This document shows positions 55,044 to 64,000 of a stretch of 64,000 nucleotides of DNA, one piece after another (within the stretch, counting starts at the first letter, position 1; each line of letters starts with the position of its first letter). Origin of the DNA: an uncultured Pelagibacteraceae bacterium. Its GTDB lineage: Bacteria > Pseudomonadota > Alphaproteobacteria > Pelagibacterales > Pelagibacteraceae. The stretch covers positions 1 through 64,000 of the forward strand of contig CACIZU010000004.1 in the NCBI GenBank assembly GCA_902591185.1. The letters are read 5' to 3'. Under the pieces are notes generated by a model. The model made no database searches and was not told the origin of the DNA. It saw nothing but the letters and a program-made list of their open reading frames with translations. The position numbers and the translations under genes were made by a program.

Positions 55044-55511
55044 TTATTTTTTAAGTTTATTTGAAAATTGTAAGTTATCAAATTTAAATTTTGATTTATT
55101 TTCATCTATAAATTGATCCATTATCATTGCTTTTTCATTTTCAAATTCAGCAACTTTCCTAATATTTAAGTCAATATATAAAGACACAACTTCAGTTGTG
55201 GCAGACAAGATATTTTTACTTTTTTCGTACATTTCTAATTTGTAATGCAGTCTTTTTTTGTCATGATCAAAATAAGATAAATAAACATCCACTTCTTCGT
55301 TTTCTTTTACTTCGTTATTGTATGTTGTGTGACTTTCTACAGCCATTGTGCTTTTTTTAGTTGTTTTTGCCGATTGTTCTCCCATCTTAAATTTAGATAA
55401 AATTTTTTCTGCACCTTTATCAAAAACTAAAATATAAAATGCTAAATTCATATGACCATTATAATCAGTCCATTCATTTATTATTTTAGTAGTTTTTAGA
55501 AGGAGAGACAT
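55044..55511 (-). CDS. Hotdog-fold thioesterase (betainyl-CoA thioesterase-like)
   Basis: EWTDYNGHMNLAFYILVFDKGAEKIL; hotdog pattern; resembles thioesterase domain fused to carnitine dehydrogenases. Confidence 0.75.
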   Translation of the reverse strand: MSLLLKTTKIINEWTDYNGHMNLAFYILVFDKGAEKILSKFKMGEQSAKTTKKSTMAVESHTTYNNEVKENEEVDVYLSYFDHDKKRLHYKLEMYEKSKNILSATTEVVSLYIDLNIRKVAEFENEKAMIMDQFIDENKSKFKFDNLQFSNKLKK

Positions 55512-56152
55512 TATTGGTTTAATTCAAATAAAATTTGTTCTGAAAGTTTTTTAATTTCATCTACAGCACTACCTTTTCTTTGTTTTTCAATTGCTGTTTT
55601 CCCTTCTCCCATTGAAGAAGCGTAAATTTGTCTGTTGCCAATTATTATATTTACCGAGGGAACGTTTAGGCTTTTTATATAATCATTTGTTTTAATAATT
55701 TGTTTTGATCTTTGGTTTGCTCTATTTATTTGTATCATAATTTTTTTATTTGCTTTTTTTGCAATATCTATAATCGCTTCTGTCGCCCAAAAATCTACAT
55801 GTGACGGGGTCATTGGAATTAAAACTAAGTCAGAAGCTTCTATAGATGGTCGTGCATCAGACTCTATTTTTGGAGGTGTGTCTATTATTACTATATCATG
55901 ATCTTTTTTTAATGTTTTAGATTCATATTGTGCGCCCCATAGACTTGCAGTTTTAAAACTTAAATTATGGTTTGATATTTTTTTTTCTGATCGGATCATA
56001 AACCATTGACCTAGACTACCTTGTGGATCAGTATCAACGACAGCAACTTTAAGATTATGGTATTTAATAAAACCCATAGCCAAGTGAATTGCTAATGTTG
56101 TTTTGCCAGTACCACCTTTTTGTTGTGAAATAGTTATAACTTTTGAGAGCAT
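55511..56152 (-). CDS. Orphan ParA/MinD-family ATPase
   Basis: Deviant Walker A QQKGGTGKTTLAIHLA, DTDPQGSLGQW, IIDTPPKIESDARPSIEASDLVLIPMTPS. Confidence 0.88.
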   Translation of the reverse strand: MLSKVITISQQKGGTGKTTLAIHLAMGFIKYHNLKVAVVDTDPQGSLGQWFMIRSEKKISNHNLSFKTASLWGAQYESKTLKKDHDIVIIDTPPKIESDARPSIEASDLVLIPMTPSHVDFWATEAIIDIAKKANKKIMIQINRANQRSKQIIKTNDYIKSLNVPSVNIIIGNRQIYASSMGEGKTAIEKQRKGSAVDEIKKLSEQILFELNQ

Positions 56153-56392: not shown

Positions 56393-57091
56393 ATGAATAA
56401 GCTATTGTTACCACAGGATATTGTTGGAGGATCGTTTTGGCTTATCTCTGTTGCTATGATTGGGGCAGCAATTTTTTTCTTTTTAGAGAGGGGTAGATTG
56501 TCAAACAGATGGGGCACAGCAATGAATCTTGTTGGTGTTATTGCTTTGATGTCATCCATTCATTATTTCTATGCAAAAAATTTGTGGGTACTAAATGGAC
56601 AGGCACCTACAGCATTAAGGTACATTGATTGGCTTTTAACTTTTCCGTTAACCATTTTAACTTTTTACGTAATGCTTAAATCAGTGACAGATATTAAAAG
56701 AGGAATGTTTTGGCGTTTAATAGTTGGAACTTTAGTTTGGGTTATAGCTCAACTTTTGGGAGCATACGGATACATGAGTGTAACTCTAGGTTTCTTAGTG
56801 GGCATAGTAGGATGGCTTTATATTATTGGTGAACTTTACATGGGTGATGCCGGAAGAATAAATGCAACATGTGGTAACGAAAATGTTCAAATGGCTTTTT
56901 TTGCAAATAGACTTATCATAACAATAGGTTTTTCAATTTATCATATTGGATATTTTATTGAGCACTTAGCAGGAGGAGCAAATATTAATAGTTTAAATGT
57001 AATTTATAATTTAGCTGACTTTTTAAATAAAATAATTTTTGGAATGATTATTTATAGTGCGGCTTTAGCAGATACAAAGAAAGGAACTTGA
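56393..57091 (+). CDS. Proteorhodopsin-like microbial rhodopsin with D-T-T motif
   Basis: 7-TM; RYIDWLLTFPLTILTFY (helix C), GWLYIIGELYMGD, retinal Lys in NLADFLNKIIFG (K213), H57 conserved. Confidence 0.93.
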   Translation: MNKLLLPQDIVGGSFWLISVAMIGAAIFFFLERGRLSNRWGTAMNLVGVIALMSSIHYFYAKNLWVLNGQAPTALRYIDWLLTFPLTILTFYVMLKSVTDIKRGMFWRLIVGTLVWVIAQLLGAYGYMSVTLGFLVGIVGWLYIIGELYMGDAGRINATCGNENVQMAFFANRLIITIGFSIYHIGYFIEHLAGGANINSLNVIYNLADFLNKIIFGMIIYSAALADTKKGT

Positions 57092-57108: not shown

Positions 57109-59103
57109 ATGACAAAAGGAGCAGATATAATAGCAGCAATAATTTTATTAGCATTGTCAATAGCGATTGTAGTTTATTTATTGCATTGGCTTTACAGAAG
57201 ATCTTCAAAAGAAGTTTCTTTTGTAAGAACAGGAATGCTTGGTGAGAAGGTAGTTATATCAGGCGGAGCATTTGTCTTACCGATAATTCACAATATTACT
57301 CAAGTTGGTATGCGAACATTGAGTCTAACAATAAAAAGAGGTGGAGATAAATCTTTAATTACTAAAGACAGAATGAGAGCAGAACTAGTAACAGAATTTT
57401 TTACTAAAGTTCCACCAGATGCAAAAGCAGTTTCAACAGCCGCGCAAACTTTAGGTAACAGAACTCTTGATCCAGAACATTTAAGAGAAGTGGTGCAAGG
57501 TCGTTTTGCGGATGCCTTAGGAGAAGTTGCAGCAAAAATGACTCTTGATGAAATACAAGAAAATCGAGGACAATTTGTTAAAGAAGTTACAAAGATTGCC
57601 GATGAATCAATTGGTCATACAGGTTTAGCATTAGAAACAGTTTCAATTATATCTTTAGATCAAGCGCCGATTGAACAATTCAATCCAGCAAATACTTTTG
57701 ACTCTCAAGGTTTGACACAATTAACCGAACAAATAGAAGCAAGAAAGAAAAAAAGAAATGATATTACTCAAGATACTAAAATATCAATTGAAAATAAAAA
57801 CTTAGAAACCGTTCAAAAAGAATTAGAAATTAAAAAGAATGAAGAGTTTTCTAGATACCAACAAGAGAGAGAAGTTTCTATTCAAAAGGCAAACGAGAGA
57901 ACCGAAACAATTAAGCAAAAAGCTGAAAAAGAAAGACAAGCTGAAGAAGCTGAAATAAAAAGTCAGGAAGCAATTGAGGTTGCAAAAATTTCTCAAAATC
58001 AAGTTATAGAAGTTGAAAGAAAACTTACTGAAACTAGATTAATTGAGGAAATTGAAAAAAGAAGAAAAGAACAAAACCAATTAGAGAAAGATGCTGCTTT
58101 AGATATTAGACAAAAAGACCTAGAAACAGAAGTCAAAATATTAAATCTAGATAAAGAGAGTGAATACGCAAGACTAGAAAAACAACGATTAGTTGACACT
58201 AAAAGAGCTCAAGAAAAAGCTGAAATAATTAAAGAACAGTCAGATAAACAAAGAGAAGCGGAAGAAGCCCAAATTATTGCAGATCAACAAGTTAAAAATG
58301 CTAAAATTGCTCAACAGAAAAATATTGATGCTCATAGAATAGAGTCTGAAAAAGAAGTTAGAACTCTAGATATAGAAAAAGCTAAAAGAATTCAGATAGA
58401 AGAACATCAAAAAGAACTTGAAATAATAGAGAAATCTAAAGAAGTTCTTATATCAAAAGCAGAAGAACAAAATACAAGAGCTAAAGCAGTAGAAGCTGAA
58501 GAGAAAGCTAACTCAACAAGATACATTGAAAAAGCTGAAGGAATTAAACAAGTTGATGTTATTGAAGCAGCTTCAAAAGCCGAACAAGATAAGCACGCAA
58601 CCATGGCAGCTAAATTAAGATATGAAATAGATGCTGCGGGTAAAGAAGCATTAAATCTTGCAGAAAATGTAAGAAGTGATGCTAATAGAAGAAGCTCATT
58701 AAGAATTAAACTTGCTGAAAAAATTGAATCAATTATCAGAGAAAGTGTTAAACCTATGGCAAACATTGGTGATATCAAAATTGTCGATGTTAGCGGCCTT
58801 CCAGGATTTAGTGGAACAAGTGTGCCCGGATCTTCAGGTGGTGGTGGAAAAGAAGGTTCTAGCGGCGGCGGAAAGAGCGGAGGAAATTTAGCTGACAATG
58901 TTGTTAGTTCGGCTTTAAGATATAGAGCTCACCAACCATTTTTAGATAGCCTTCTTAAAGAAATTGGAATGAATCCTGGCGAAATAAGTAACATCCGAAA
59001 TATCCTTGGAGATTATGGGAATCCAAAAAAAGATTATCATATGAATTTTGGTGAAGATGTTTCTAAAAATTTAAAAGGAGCCAATAGTCCAAAAAACAAA
59101 TAA
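57109..59103 (+). CDS. Flotillin-like SPFH/Band 7 protein
   Basis: N-terminal TM then GEKVVISGGAFVLPIIHNITQVGMRTLSLTI; long Glu/Lys/Ala coiled-coil; Gly-rich linker and C-terminal domain. Confidence 0.88.
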   Translation: MTKGADIIAAIILLALSIAIVVYLLHWLYRRSSKEVSFVRTGMLGEKVVISGGAFVLPIIHNITQVGMRTLSLTIKRGGDKSLITKDRMRAELVTEFFTKVPPDAKAVSTAAQTLGNRTLDPEHLREVVQGRFADALGEVAAKMTLDEIQENRGQFVKEVTKIADESIGHTGLALETVSIISLDQAPIEQFNPANTFDSQGLTQLTEQIEARKKKRNDITQDTKISIENKNLETVQKELEIKKNEEFSRYQQEREVSIQKANERTETIKQKAEKERQAEEAEIKSQEAIEVAKISQNQVIEVERKLTETRLIEEIEKRRKEQNQLEKDAALDIRQKDLETEVKILNLDKESEYARLEKQRLVDTKRAQEKAEIIKEQSDKQREAEEAQIIADQQVKNAKIAQQKNIDAHRIESEKEVRTLDIEKAKRIQIEEHQKELEIIEKSKEVLISKAEEQNTRAKAVEAEEKANSTRYIEKAEGIKQVDVIEAASKAEQDKHATMAAKLRYEIDAAGKEALNLAENVRSDANRRSSLRIKLAEKIESIIRESVKPMANIGDIKIVDVSGLPGFSGTSVPGSSGGGGKEGSSGGGKSGGNLADNVVSSALRYRAHQPFLDSLLKEIGMNPGEISNIRNILGDYGNPKKDYHMNFGEDVSKNLKGANSPKNK

Positions 59104-59121
59104 TTTAATTAAAATATTATT

Positions 59122-59511
59122 ATGAGCACAGAAGTAGAAAATTGGGCAAAGAAATATGAAGACTTTACTAATGGTGATGAAACCATTAATGCGATGGCAA
59201 AATATTATACTTGCTCTTTTATGTTTGACATGGAAAACGCAAAAGTAATAATTGAAATGCATGATGGTAAAGTAAAAAATATAAATACAAATCCATCTCC
59301 TTTGGATCCATATGATTTTGCATTGAGAGCTTCAGCAAATACTTGGAGAGAGTTTGGTCAACCTATGCCTAAACCAATGTATCATGGAATATGGTCTGCA
59401 AGTTTTTTAAAAGATTTAAAAATAGAAGGTAATCATTTAATTTTAATGAAAAATTTAAGAAATTTTACAGTTCAATTTGAATTGTTAAGAAAAACAGGAG
59501 TACCAGTTTAA
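59122..59511 (+). CDS. Small SCP2-like/unknown protein
   Basis: 129 aa; YTCSFMFDMENAKVIIEMHDGKV…FALRASANTWREFGQP resembles SCP2 fold; operonic. Confidence 0.5.
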   Translation: MSTEVENWAKKYEDFTNGDETINAMAKYYTCSFMFDMENAKVIIEMHDGKVKNINTNPSPLDPYDFALRASANTWREFGQPMPKPMYHGIWSASFLKDLKIEGNHLILMKNLRNFTVQFELLRKTGVPV

Positions 59512-59542: not shown

Positions 59543-60397
59543 ATGGTAAAACATCATGATGTTGTAGGACGTTATGTAACTATAGAAGTTGATGATTGTG
59601 AGTATAAGGTTTTTTATTTGCAAAATGGAAAAGGAATTCCATTAATCTGCCAACATACAGCGGGATGTCATAATCATCAATGGAGAGGACTACTTGAAGA
59701 TGAAGAAATTACAAAAAATTATAATGTTATTGCTTATGATCTGCCAAGACATGGAAAATCTGATCCACCACACAATAAAGAATGGTGGAAAGAAGAATAT
59801 AAGCTAACCGCAGAACATTATTGTAATTTTATCATAAAATTATGTGAAGCTTTGGGATTACAAAATCCAATATTTATGGGATCTTCATTTGGTGGAAATG
59901 TGGCTCTACAATTAGCTTTAAGGCATCCTAATAAATTTAGAGCTGTTATACCTGTAGAAGCGGCAGATTATGCTCCAGGATTTTATCTAGACTGGTGGAG
60001 GCATCCTCATGCAAATGCAGCTCAAGTTTGTGCTAGTGGAACTTGGGATCTTATGGCACCTCAATCACCAGAAAAAGATAGATGGTTAACTTGGCATTAT
60101 TACACTCAAGGATCAGAGGCCTTTAAAGGAGATTTATATTTTTACTCAGTAGACCATGATTTGAGAAATGAATTAAAAAATATTGACGGACATAAGTGTC
60201 CAGTAATTATGTTAACAGGAACTTATGATTATTTAACTCCACCAGAAGCAACAGAAAATACTGCAAGACAAATTAAAGGTGGAGTTTATATAGAAATGAC
60301 AGACATAGGGCATTTTCCAATGAGTGAAAATCATGAGGTATTTAGAGTTTATTTAATTGAAGCATTAAAGATAATTCAAGAAAGGACTAATAAGTAA
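59543..60397 (+). CDS. Alpha/beta hydrolase
   Basis: AYDLPRHGKSDPP, FMGSSFGGNVALQLALRHP, DIGHFPMSEN. Confidence 0.9.
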   Translation: MVKHHDVVGRYVTIEVDDCEYKVFYLQNGKGIPLICQHTAGCHNHQWRGLLEDEEITKNYNVIAYDLPRHGKSDPPHNKEWWKEEYKLTAEHYCNFIIKLCEALGLQNPIFMGSSFGGNVALQLALRHPNKFRAVIPVEAADYAPGFYLDWWRHPHANAAQVCASGTWDLMAPQSPEKDRWLTWHYYTQGSEAFKGDLYFYSVDHDLRNELKNIDGHKCPVIMLTGTYDYLTPPEATENTARQIKGGVYIEMTDIGHFPMSENHEVFRVYLIEALKIIQERTNK

Positions 60398-60400
60398 TTT

Positions 60401-60820
60401 ATGACAAAAGATAAAACTGGAGTTCAAGTAAATCAAGGTCATACAAGTACTGATGATTTTATAACAAGAAAATATGTATTGCCATTATTAAAAGATGAAA
60501 AAATGAGAAATAAATTAATCGAGGAACATAGAGCTTGTCCAGTAGGTAAAGCAGCTCAACCTCACAAAGGTCAGCCAATGGTTGAACATAGCAAGGAACT
60601 TCAAACTGTTTTAGACAAACTTAGACGACAACCAATGCATATAAAAAAATATGTAACGGTATGTAAAAAAGATTTTGAAGATTATAGAATAGGAATCGTA
60701 ACTGGAGTAAGAGGTGAACCGGTTGAAATTTTAGAAGAGTCATTTTCTTCAGAAGAAGCTTGTGAGCATGCTATTTTTTTAAAGAGAATTGTAGAACTTT
60801 TAGAAAGATATTCGGAATGA
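60401..60820 (+). CDS. N,N-dimethylformamidase small (alpha) subunit-like protein
   Basis: EEHRACPVGK…LRRQPMHIKKYVTVCKKDFEDYRIGIVTGVRGEPVEILEESFSSEEACEHAIFLKRIVELL; matches remembered DmfA1 pattern (KYY…YRI…G.LPV…SF.TEEEAMHAVFLKRI). Confidence 0.7.
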   Translation: MTKDKTGVQVNQGHTSTDDFITRKYVLPLLKDEKMRNKLIEEHRACPVGKAAQPHKGQPMVEHSKELQTVLDKLRRQPMHIKKYVTVCKKDFEDYRIGIVTGVRGEPVEILEESFSSEEACEHAIFLKRIVELLERYSE

Positions 60821-60842: not shown

Positions 60843-63200
60843 ATGTTAAGGATCACAGGATATAGCGACAAATATTCAGCTTTCCCAGGAGAGAAAGTAA
60901 AATTTTATGTGAATGCGGAAAAAAATGAAAACTATGACGTTCAAATTGTAAGATTAATTCATGGCGATACAAATCCTGAAGGCCCAGGATATAAAGAAGA
61001 AGAAATAGGAGCTCAGTGCAACAAAACGTATCAAGGAAGAAACCAAAAAATTCATGGTGGTTCTTACGTAGTTATTCCTCAAGATGATAGATTAAACACA
61101 ACAAGCTTTACTTTACAGGCATATATATTTCCAACTACACCAGATAAAGGAAAACAAGGAATTTTAACAAAGTGGAATGAAAAATCTAAAAGTGGCTATG
61201 GTCTTTTCGTAGATGAAAATGGATGTCTTTCAGTAATGATAGGAGATGGAGCTGGACAAGTAATGAACTTATCTAGTGAAAAAAAATTAATGAGAAAAGT
61301 TTGGTATCTTGTTGCTGCGAGTTATGATTCTGAAACTGGTAAGTTAAAATTATATCAAGAACCATGTGTAACTCCAACTAATGGTGGATTAGGCATGTCA
61401 TTACTTCATCCTGCTGATGAAACAACATCATTTGTTGAAGCAACAAATAATTTAAAACCAAGAGCAAACGATGCGCCTTTTTTAATGGCAGCATGCACTC
61501 TCAATGATCATTCTGGAAGACATATACAGGGAGCTCATTACAAAGAGGCAATAGATCCGGTAGAATTGCCAGAGCAAACTTTAACTTATAATGGTAAGAT
61601 TGATAGACCTAGATTAAGCAAAAAAGCCTTATCTAAAGCCGAAATAGAGTCTTTGGCAAGAGGATATAGCGGATGCCCATCAGATTTAAGATCCGAAGTA
61701 ATTGGAGCATGGGATTTTCACGCAAACATAACAACAAACATTGCTTCAACTTATATTATTGATATGACTTCAAATCACCTGAATGGCTTTATAATTAATT
61801 TACCTTGCAGAGGTATGACTGGTTATAATTGGACTGCTGATGAAATGGTTTTTCATCACAAACCTGAAGAGTACGGAGCGATACATTTTCATGATGATGA
61901 TATTGATGATGCAAGATGGGAAGTTGATTTTACTTATGAAATTCCTGACTTAATAAAAAGTGGAGTTTATGCTGCTAGATTAAGAATTAATGGCGAAGAC
62001 TCTTCCGAGACAGAAGATTTTGTACCATTTGTTATCAAGCCACCAAAAGGAAAAACAACTTCAAAACTTTTATTTGTATTACCTTCAAACAGCTATATGG
62101 CTTATTCAAATGACAATTTAGGAACAAATTCAGTAGTTGCTCAATTGTTAGCTGGTAAAGTTCCAGTTATGTCAGCATCAGATTTATATTTAAATGAACA
62201 TAGAGAATATGGATTATCAACTTATTCTCAACACTCAGACGGTAGCGGAGTAGCTATTTCATCAAGGTTAAGACCAATACTTAACATGAGACCAAAATAT
62301 AGGCACTGGTTATCACCTTCATTATGGCAATTAAATGCAGACCTTCATTTAACAGATTGGCTTGAAGAAAAAAATTTAGATTTTGATGTTGTGACAGATG
62401 AAGATTTACATATCGAAGGTGTCGATATGTTAAATCGTTATAGATGCGTTTTAACTGGATCACACCCAGAATATAGTTCAGAAAAAATGCTAGCAGCATA
62501 CGAGTCATATCAATTGAATGGTGGAAGATGGATATATTTAGGTTCAGATGGTTTTTATTGGATTAGCGAGTATCATCCGGATAATCCAAATATTATTGAA
62601 GTTAGAAAAGGTGAAGCAGGAACAAGAGCTTGGACAGCAAATCCTGGTGAATACAATAATGCTTTTGATGGAAAATATGGTGGAATGTGGAGAGCAAGAG
62701 GAAGAATTCCTTCCAAAGTTTGTGGCCTAACTTTTACAGCATATGGATTTGATGTTTCTTCATATTATAAACGAGAACCTGATAGTAAAAGACCTGAATG
62801 TTCATGGATCTTTGATGGTGTTGGAGATGATGAAGTAATAGGAGATTTTGGTTTAGTTGGTGGAGGTGCAGCTGGACTTGAGCTTGATAGATATGACTTA
62901 GAATTTGGAACACCACATAATGCTTATTTATTAGCAAGATCAGAAAATCATACAAACTTAATGTTACAAGTTAACGAAGAAATTCATTTCTCTGTTAGAG
63001 GTTATTATGGTGGAGGAACCGAAAACCCGATGGTTAGAGCTGATATGATTTATTATAAAACACCAAATGACGGTGCTTTGTTCGCACCAGGATCACTTTC
63101 ATGGTGTGGAAGTTTATCTTACAATAATTATAACAATAATGTCTCTAAGATTTTAGAAAATGCAATTAGAGGATTTTTAAAAGAAGGACCTTTGCCATAA
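60843..63200 (+). CDS. N,N-dimethylformamidase large (beta) subunit-like protein
   Basis: LamG-like N-terminal domain; LFVLPSNSYMAYSND, STYSQHSDGSGVAISSRLRPILNMRPKYRHW, LTGSHPEYSS (H-x-E) motifs of the family. Confidence 0.85.
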   Translation: MLRITGYSDKYSAFPGEKVKFYVNAEKNENYDVQIVRLIHGDTNPEGPGYKEEEIGAQCNKTYQGRNQKIHGGSYVVIPQDDRLNTTSFTLQAYIFPTTPDKGKQGILTKWNEKSKSGYGLFVDENGCLSVMIGDGAGQVMNLSSEKKLMRKVWYLVAASYDSETGKLKLYQEPCVTPTNGGLGMSLLHPADETTSFVEATNNLKPRANDAPFLMAACTLNDHSGRHIQGAHYKEAIDPVELPEQTLTYNGKIDRPRLSKKALSKAEIESLARGYSGCPSDLRSEVIGAWDFHANITTNIASTYIIDMTSNHLNGFIINLPCRGMTGYNWTADEMVFHHKPEEYGAIHFHDDDIDDARWEVDFTYEIPDLIKSGVYAARLRINGEDSSETEDFVPFVIKPPKGKTTSKLLFVLPSNSYMAYSNDNLGTNSVVAQLLAGKVPVMSASDLYLNEHREYGLSTYSQHSDGSGVAISSRLRPILNMRPKYRHWLSPSLWQLNADLHLTDWLEEKNLDFDVVTDEDLHIEGVDMLNRYRCVLTGSHPEYSSEKMLAAYESYQLNGGRWIYLGSDGFYWISEYHPDNPNIIEVRKGEAGTRAWTANPGEYNNAFDGKYGGMWRARGRIPSKVCGLTFTAYGFDVSSYYKREPDSKRPECSWIFDGVGDDEVIGDFGLVGGGAAGLELDRYDLEFGTPHNAYLLARSENHTNLMLQVNEEIHFSVRGYYGGGTENPMVRADMIYYKTPNDGALFAPGSLSWCGSLSYNNYNNNVSKILENAIRGFLKEGPLP

Positions 63201-63568
63201 TGAATAAACCTGAATTTGGTAGACCAGTTGGAACAGACGGAAAAGGTATTTTAGGTTCTGATGATGCCACACCTTTAAACCAACTTGAAAAAAATGCTTT
63301 AGGAAATTTAGACGAAGACAAGTTAAATGAATTGGCCAAAAGTCTTTTTACTCTAAACAATAGAAAATACGGGCCTATTCCAGGAGCTTATATGGTAATG
63401 TGTACTAAAACGGGTAAAGAGTGGTGTGTAGCTCAACTTAATGCTGATAGGGCTAAACCATTTATAATTTTTGAAGATAAAGCTTTTTCTTCTATAGCTG
63501 AAGCTCAAAAAGAAGCTGAAAGAATGAAAAAAGAGCGAGGTGAATCGGCACCAAGACGTTGCACTTAA
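63200..63568 (+). CDS. Conserved-looking small protein of unknown function
   Basis: 122 aa ORF, ATG overlaps stop of large subunit; inside the cluster. Confidence 0.6.
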   Translation: MNKPEFGRPVGTDGKGILGSDDATPLNQLEKNALGNLDEDKLNELAKSLFTLNNRKYGPIPGAYMVMCTKTGKEWCVAQLNADRAKPFIIFEDKAFSSIAEAQKEAERMKKERGESAPRRCT

Positions 63569-63588: not shown

Positions 63589-64000
63589 ATGTCCGAAAAA
63601 TCTCTTTGGTTATTTATTTTTATATTATTATATGCTTCTTACTGTTTTTTTTGGGGAGTAAGGGGGTCAAGATATAATTCTGATAATCCTGAAGAATATT
63701 ATTTAGCAAATAGAAATATTTCTTCATGGGTATTTTTTTTTGCAGCTACAGCTGCAACATTTGCAGGACTAACAGTAATATCTCAAACAAGTCTTGTTTT
63801 TCATGATGGCTTTCAATTTGTTGGTACAGCTTTTATAGCAATAACAGTTCCTCTTGGAAGTATATTTTTTTTTAAGAGACAGTGGATGTTAAGTAGAAAA
63901 TTTGGATATATTACTCCAGGTGAAATGTATTATGAATATTATAAGAGTGATACAATTCGTGTTATATCAGTATTGGTAACTTTTTTTATAGCAATACCTC
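63589..64000 (+). CDS. Sodium:solute symporter (SSS) family protein (partial, runs off window end)
   Basis: Open frame MSEKSLWLFIFILLYASYCFFWGVRGSRYNSDNPEEYYLANRNISSWVFFFAATAATFAGLTVISQTSLVFHDGFQFVG; SSS N-terminus 'EYYLANRN' pattern. Confidence 0.8.
   Translation, partial: MSEKSLWLFIFILLYASYCFFWGVRGSRYNSDNPEEYYLANRNISSWVFFFAATAATFAGLTVISQTSLVFHDGFQFVGTAFIAITVPLGSIFFFKRQWMLSRKFGYITPGEMYYEYYKSDTIRVISVLVTFFIAIP

Follow-up and report, generated by a model that had tools for sequence, protein, structure and literature searches.

A flotillin-associated rhodopsin at the head of a conserved gene cluster in a Pelagibacteraceae genome

The rhodopsin gene and its neighbours

The DNA analysed here, referred to as the window, is a stretch of 64,000 nucleotides from an uncultured Pelagibacteraceae bacterium, and its last part is occupied by a conserved gene cluster headed by a paralog of proteorhodopsin (PR), a flotillin-associated rhodopsin (FArhodopsin, FAR; Table 1). 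Translation gives an uninterrupted protein of 232 amino acids, whose helix C reads RYIDWLLTFPLTILTFY. Alignment to bacteriorhodopsin (bR) and proteorhodopsins places D79 at the counterion (bR D85, PR D97), T83 at bR T89 (PR T101), T87 at the colour site (bR L93, PR position 105), T90 at bR D96 (PR E108) and K213 at the retinal lysine (bR K216, PR K231), and aligns H57 with the counterion histidine of proteorhodopsin; R76 and D209 are also kept. Thus, the residues that the first-pass annotation had read from the sequence (the DTT motif formed by D79, T83 and T90, together with T87, H57 and K213) are indeed encoded by an intact reading frame, and the carboxylate donor at position 108, a feature of DTE pumps, is absent and replaced by Thr90. 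The N-terminal leader of about 23 residues is missing as well, in comparison with a leader-bearing proteorhodopsin of 256 amino acids in the same genome.

Table 1. Features of the FArhodopsin cluster in the window
Feature	Position	Strand	Evidence
FArhodopsin gene, DTT-T motif, K213 kept, short N-terminus	56393..57091	+	translation; PF01036 E 5e-26; PDB 9r21/9r23; tree
Codon ACT, Thr90, proton-donor position (PR E108 / bR D96)	56660..56662	+	
Flotillin (SPFH and Flot domains, 664 aa)	57109..59103	+	PF15975 E 1e-28; PF01145 E 4e-10
Conserved 129-aa FAR-cluster protein	59122..59511	+	found in 72/79 loci
Alpha/beta hydrolase	59543..60397	+	PF00561 E 6e-21
139-aa protein, N,N-dimethylformamidase small-subunit-like	60401..60820	+	6lvb_B E 1.2e-6
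N,N-dimethylformamidase large-subunit-like enzyme	60843..63200	+	PF20254 E 1e-90; 6lvb_A E 5e-190
Conserved 122-aa FAR-cluster protein	63200..63568	+	conserved synteny
Sodium:solute symporter gene start, continues past the window	63589..64000	+	PF00474 E 2e-17 on contig C4

The second rhodopsin of the host genome (1.04 Mb, 73% complete), located on contig C6, is an ordinary DTE-Q proteorhodopsin with a leader and with the helix C RYIDWLITVPLQMVEFY. The genome also encodes a BCD-type beta-carotene dioxygenase, a retinal-forming enzyme, and a weak cyclase-like match adjoins its gene; judged from these genes, retinal is presumably made by the host. The lycopene-cyclase model gave no match above its cut-off in any of ten genomes, and the weak matches, all being below the cut-off, were therefore not relied on.

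The flotillin gene begins 17 nt downstream of the rhodopsin gene on the same strand, and a flotillin gene follows the rhodopsin gene in all 78 FAR loci that have room for it. Beyond the window, the symporter gene is followed by genes for an Fe-alcohol dehydrogenase and a metallo-beta-lactamase-fold protein. The alpha/beta hydrolase is among the best conserved proteins of the cluster, with 84-99% identity among the FAR loci listed, except for one locus whose rhodopsin lacks the retinal lysine. The N,N-dimethylformamidase (DMFase)-like large subunit keeps the residues that align with Y399, Y440 and E521 of 6lvb_A, which we take to be the Tyr-Tyr-Glu iron ligands of that enzyme. The 129-aa protein matched nothing in Pfam or NCBIfam and had no significant counterpart in the PDB, and the searches with the 122-aa protein gave no match; a sterol-carrier-like protein has been annotated within the FAR cluster (PMC10308929).

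A ParA-type partition ATPase gene (55511-56152, minus strand; NCBIfam NF041546, above cut-off) is oriented divergently 240 bp from the rhodopsin gene, and a gene of this type was found in 44 of 79 FAR loci. The Rfam search gave no match near the rhodopsin gene, the sole match in the window being an rhtB sRNA (RF01814, 24806-24888, plus strand, 80.8 bits).

Family membership, selection and the retinal pocket

The window rhodopsin is a FArhodopsin of the Pelagibacterales (SAR11) and not a mutated proton pump. The FArhodopsin clade was named by Haro-Moreno et al. in 2023, with the single-cell genome AG-390-L03 as reference (PMC10308929). Its members in the Pelagibacterales have a DTT motif with Thr at position 105, miss the leader, are followed by a flotillin gene 16 nt downstream, and occur in genomes with a separate DTE proteorhodopsin (PMC10308929). 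The window gene differs from this description in nothing of substance: the flotillin spacer is 17 instead of 16 nt, and the remaining differences are ordinary divergence. It also has the motif that marks the family (DTT, DTL or DNI in general, and DTT with Thr at 105 in the Pelagibacterales). AG-390-L03 (95% identity) has the same motif, residue 105, short N-terminus, adjacent flotillin gene and a DTE proteorhodopsin elsewhere, and shares with the window the DMFase, alpha/beta hydrolase, symporter and Fe-alcohol dehydrogenase genes; the order of the entire cluster, from the rhodopsin gene through those for flotillin, the 129-aa protein, the hydrolase, the 139-aa protein, the DMFase-like enzyme, the 122-aa protein, the symporter and the Fe-alcohol dehydrogenase to that for the metallo-beta-lactamase-fold protein, is common to both. 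DTT-T rhodopsins had been seen before, first at Station ALOHA between 200 and 1000 m by Olson et al. in 2018, who cited the SAR11 genome AAA288-N07 (94% identity to the window rhodopsin) as containing one (PMC5864233). These share motif and lineage with the window gene, and the 2018 paper does not mention flotillin (PMC5864233). Hence, as a FArhodopsin, the window gene is of an already known kind.

Relatives of known structure lead to the same family. The top PDB matches, 9r21 and 9r23 (E 4e-88), are entitled 'flotillin-associated rhodopsin' and align to the window rhodopsin without gaps across 229 residues, and the proteorhodopsin 4jq6 comes behind them (2e-56); our literature search found no publication describing the 9r21-9r23 structures. 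9r21 belongs to the same clade but differs by a DTM motif, by Gln at 105, and by His84 and Glu120 in place of the Phe84 and Gln120 of the window protein. The blue and green proteorhodopsins (4jq6, 4kly, 2l6x) belong to the same fold family, and equivalents of their D97, T101, H75 and K231 are present in the window protein, which differs from them by Thr in place of E108, by replacements at the equivalents of bR 90, 118, 122, 182 and 186, and by the missing leader.

Our scan of GTDB species genomes yielded 75 loci, those of AG-390-L03 and AAA288-N07 among them; most were from single-cell genomes of SAR11 (91-99% identity) and of other Alphaproteobacteria (HIMB59-type, with DNI sequences; 69%). 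Among 150 genomes of relatives, three others match the window gene at 92-95% and the remaining matches are at or below 50%. As to a viral origin, no relatives were found in IMG/VR, using two patterns, or in phage records. In a tree of 45 rows, a single branch (support 97/88) sets all FArhodopsins apart, and the 12 SAR11 DTT rows, including the window gene, form a clade (100/99) whose sister is the HIMB59-type DNI group. The DTT clade is therefore real, as the first-pass annotation had proposed for testing, and the window gene is not a singleton within a DTE clade. Moreover, Thr90 is present in all 45 distinct SAR11 homologous genes (43 ACT and 2 ACA codons), and pairwise dN/dS has a median of 0.029 (312 usable pairs), so that chance or sequencing error is excluded and the SAR11 FArhodopsins are under strong purifying selection. 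A decaying or mis-sequenced proteorhodopsin, to which the lost donor carboxylate could point, is ruled out by this ratio and by a motif that stays fixed across these 45 genes through synonymous codon changes. The Thr at the colour site, which the same annotation had stressed, is present, but a colour-tuning argument built on it is weak, since the residue at 105 varies across the SAR11 clade (T, S, Q or I). Two other SAR11 FArhodopsins (L003:10001-10696 and L011:10001-10696) have an ETT motif, in which Glu replaces the counterion Asp.

Aside from T90, the whole SAR11 clade has unusual and for the most part bulky residues at five positions of the predicted retinal pocket: F84 (bR T90; Val in PR), W116 (bR M118), Q120 (bR G122), F180 (bR W182) and H184 (bR P186). 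These five, T90 and K213 are invariant across the 45 genes, and the Gln, His and Phe at bR 122, 186 and 182, respectively, were found in none of the aligned proteorhodopsins. In the HIMB59-type members, bR positions 90, 118 and 122 are occupied by F, F and G and position 141 by Trp, and the 9r21-like group has His at bR 90 and Glu at 122. Within the aligned blocks, 9r21 and 9r23 are identical except for two residues, H84/V84 and E120/G120, at the positions of F84 and Q120 in the window protein; 9r23 looks like an engineered, pocket-restoring variant, since His and Glu occur in the natural relatives at loci L070 and L071. Changes are no more frequent at conserved pocket positions than at conserved positions elsewhere (8/20 versus 25/81, Fisher p 0.44), and the argument from the pocket thus rests on the kind of residue and not on the number of changes. 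AlphaFold2 models of 12 FArhodopsins had a mean pLDDT of 62, too poor for analysing pocket geometry or clashes or for a fold search.

In all, the first-pass annotation was right about the lost donor, the Thr at the tuning site and the separate clade; what it had missed is that this clade is known, its tie to flotillin, the DTE-Q pump in the same genome and the other pocket residues.

FArhodopsins in other lineages

The genes for the rhodopsin, flotillin, the 129-aa protein and the alpha/beta hydrolase stand in this order in SAR11, in HIMB59-type genomes, at the L070 and L071 loci and in an alphaproteobacterial family designated f67. SAR11, HIMB59-type genomes and L070/L071 also have, with some reordering, the DMFase-like large subunit and the two small proteins encoded beside it, which were not found in the stretch examined for f67. 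A flotillin query detected the FArhodopsin-flotillin pair of f67 in three genomes of about 4 Mb that are 96-97% complete (loci L120, L121 and L122 of G328, G500 and G422, respectively). These FArhodopsins have DTT, DTV or DTI motifs and Gln at 105, and do not have the bulky F/H and Q/E at bR 90 and 122. In the three genomes neither a further rhodopsin nor a BCD dioxygenase was found, but RPE65-type oxygenases are present; for this reason, the absence of retinal synthesis in FArhodopsin-only genomes is not clean.

A divergent rhodopsin gene (L148:9967-10701) in G694, a genome of 3.8 Mb listed as 100% complete, lies next to genes for flotillin, ABC permeases and a symporter. In its product the retinal lysine is replaced by Arg and the counterion by Gly, and G694 yielded neither a further rhodopsin gene nor a BCD or RPE65 gene. 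We are unsure of its placement in the tree because of its long branch. FArhodopsins without the lysine have been reported earlier from freshwater metagenomes (PMC10308929).

The L070 and L071 clusters come from metagenome-assembled genomes that carry the labels Hyphomicrobiales and Chromatiales. In both, two genes for membrane transporters lie immediately upstream and a DMFase-like gene is located downstream, and the L070 protein has Glu at the D212 position. Another FArhodopsin-bearing SAR11 genome (G083, 85% complete; locus L126, contig C19) has as its second rhodopsin a DTQ-Q instead of a DTE protein, and no BCD gene was found in it. A DTQ-Q rhodopsin has been shown to pump protons (PMC5864233).

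Possible roles of the protein

When expressed in E. coli, DTT-T rhodopsins neither bound retinal nor pumped, those of SAR11 still did not bind retinal after an N-terminus had been grafted on, and DTE-to-DTT-T swaps abolished pumping (PMC5864233). Together with the unusual pocket, this failure makes the slow photocycle or photosensory role proposed in the first-pass annotation less likely than a role without retinal. In our opinion, the window protein is probably a seven-helix partner of flotillin that binds retinal barely or not at all and serves as a scaffold or adapter instead of a light-driven pump. The bulky pocket residues would keep retinal out or allow it to bind only poorly, and the protein would act with flotillin as a membrane scaffold or adapter, such that the flotillin microdomain may be organised for the transporter and the enzymes of the cluster (amide metabolism), or the DTE-Q pump may be modulated. 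The microdomain role is one that gene order alone suggests. In agreement with this proposal, the relative lacking the retinal lysine retains the flotillin and symporter context. It is odd, however, that K213 and the counterions D79 and D209 are kept under purifying selection in nearly all SAR11 members if retinal is never bound, and the negative result in E. coli may be due to misfolding or to the absence of flotillin.

The strongest point against a protein without retinal is that the lysine and the counterions are retained, which keeps alive the idea of a retinal-binding photosensor, or a very slow pump with Thr at the donor position, whose pocket, although distorted, would accept retinal or another derivative of carotenoids in its native membrane with flotillin. 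R76 and H57 are likewise kept, the lysine is never lost among the 45 SAR11 genes, the genome has a retinal-forming dioxygenase with the weak cyclase-like match beside it, and the clade prefers dim-light water (PMC10308929). We nevertheless consider this idea unlikely, given that the SAR11 DTT-T proteins did not take up retinal in E. coli even when grafted, that the residues at bR 122, 186 and 182 are foreign to the aligned proteorhodopsins, and that the adjacent genes include no recognisable transducer gene. Proteorhodopsins form oligomers, and flotillin could gather the FArhodopsin and the coexisting DTE proteorhodopsin into mixed oligomers with altered pump activity. A role as modifier of the DTE pump has been suggested before (PMC10308929), and the host, like HIMB59-type carriers of a FArhodopsin, has a proteorhodopsin paralog as well. 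However, G694 and the three f67 genomes have a FArhodopsin and flotillin and no other rhodopsin, and a pump partner is thus not obligatory for the family, which makes this the more improbable of the two alternatives.

A broader suggestion, which we regard as tentative and rather doubtful, is that the FArhodopsins, as a family with the rhodopsin fold, have given up the use of light and act as a seven-helix, retinal-free adapter of flotillin microdomains for the uptake and breakdown of amide-type substrates, which would involve the DMFase-like enzyme, the hydrolase and the symporter or ABC permeases. If true, the adapter would also have been kept in alphaproteobacteria that are not streamlined and lack any further rhodopsin, one of which has lost the retinal lysine. 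The FArhodopsin clusters in alphaproteobacterial genomes of about 4 Mb without other rhodopsins, one without the retinal lysine, are modest additions to what is known of the family. FArhodopsins are one of the most abundant rhodopsin types of the deep ocean, and our comparisons sharpen the question of their function, because the unusual pocket residues are fixed under selection and genomes exist in which a FArhodopsin is the only rhodopsin. The enzymes of the cluster point to a testable metabolic setting.
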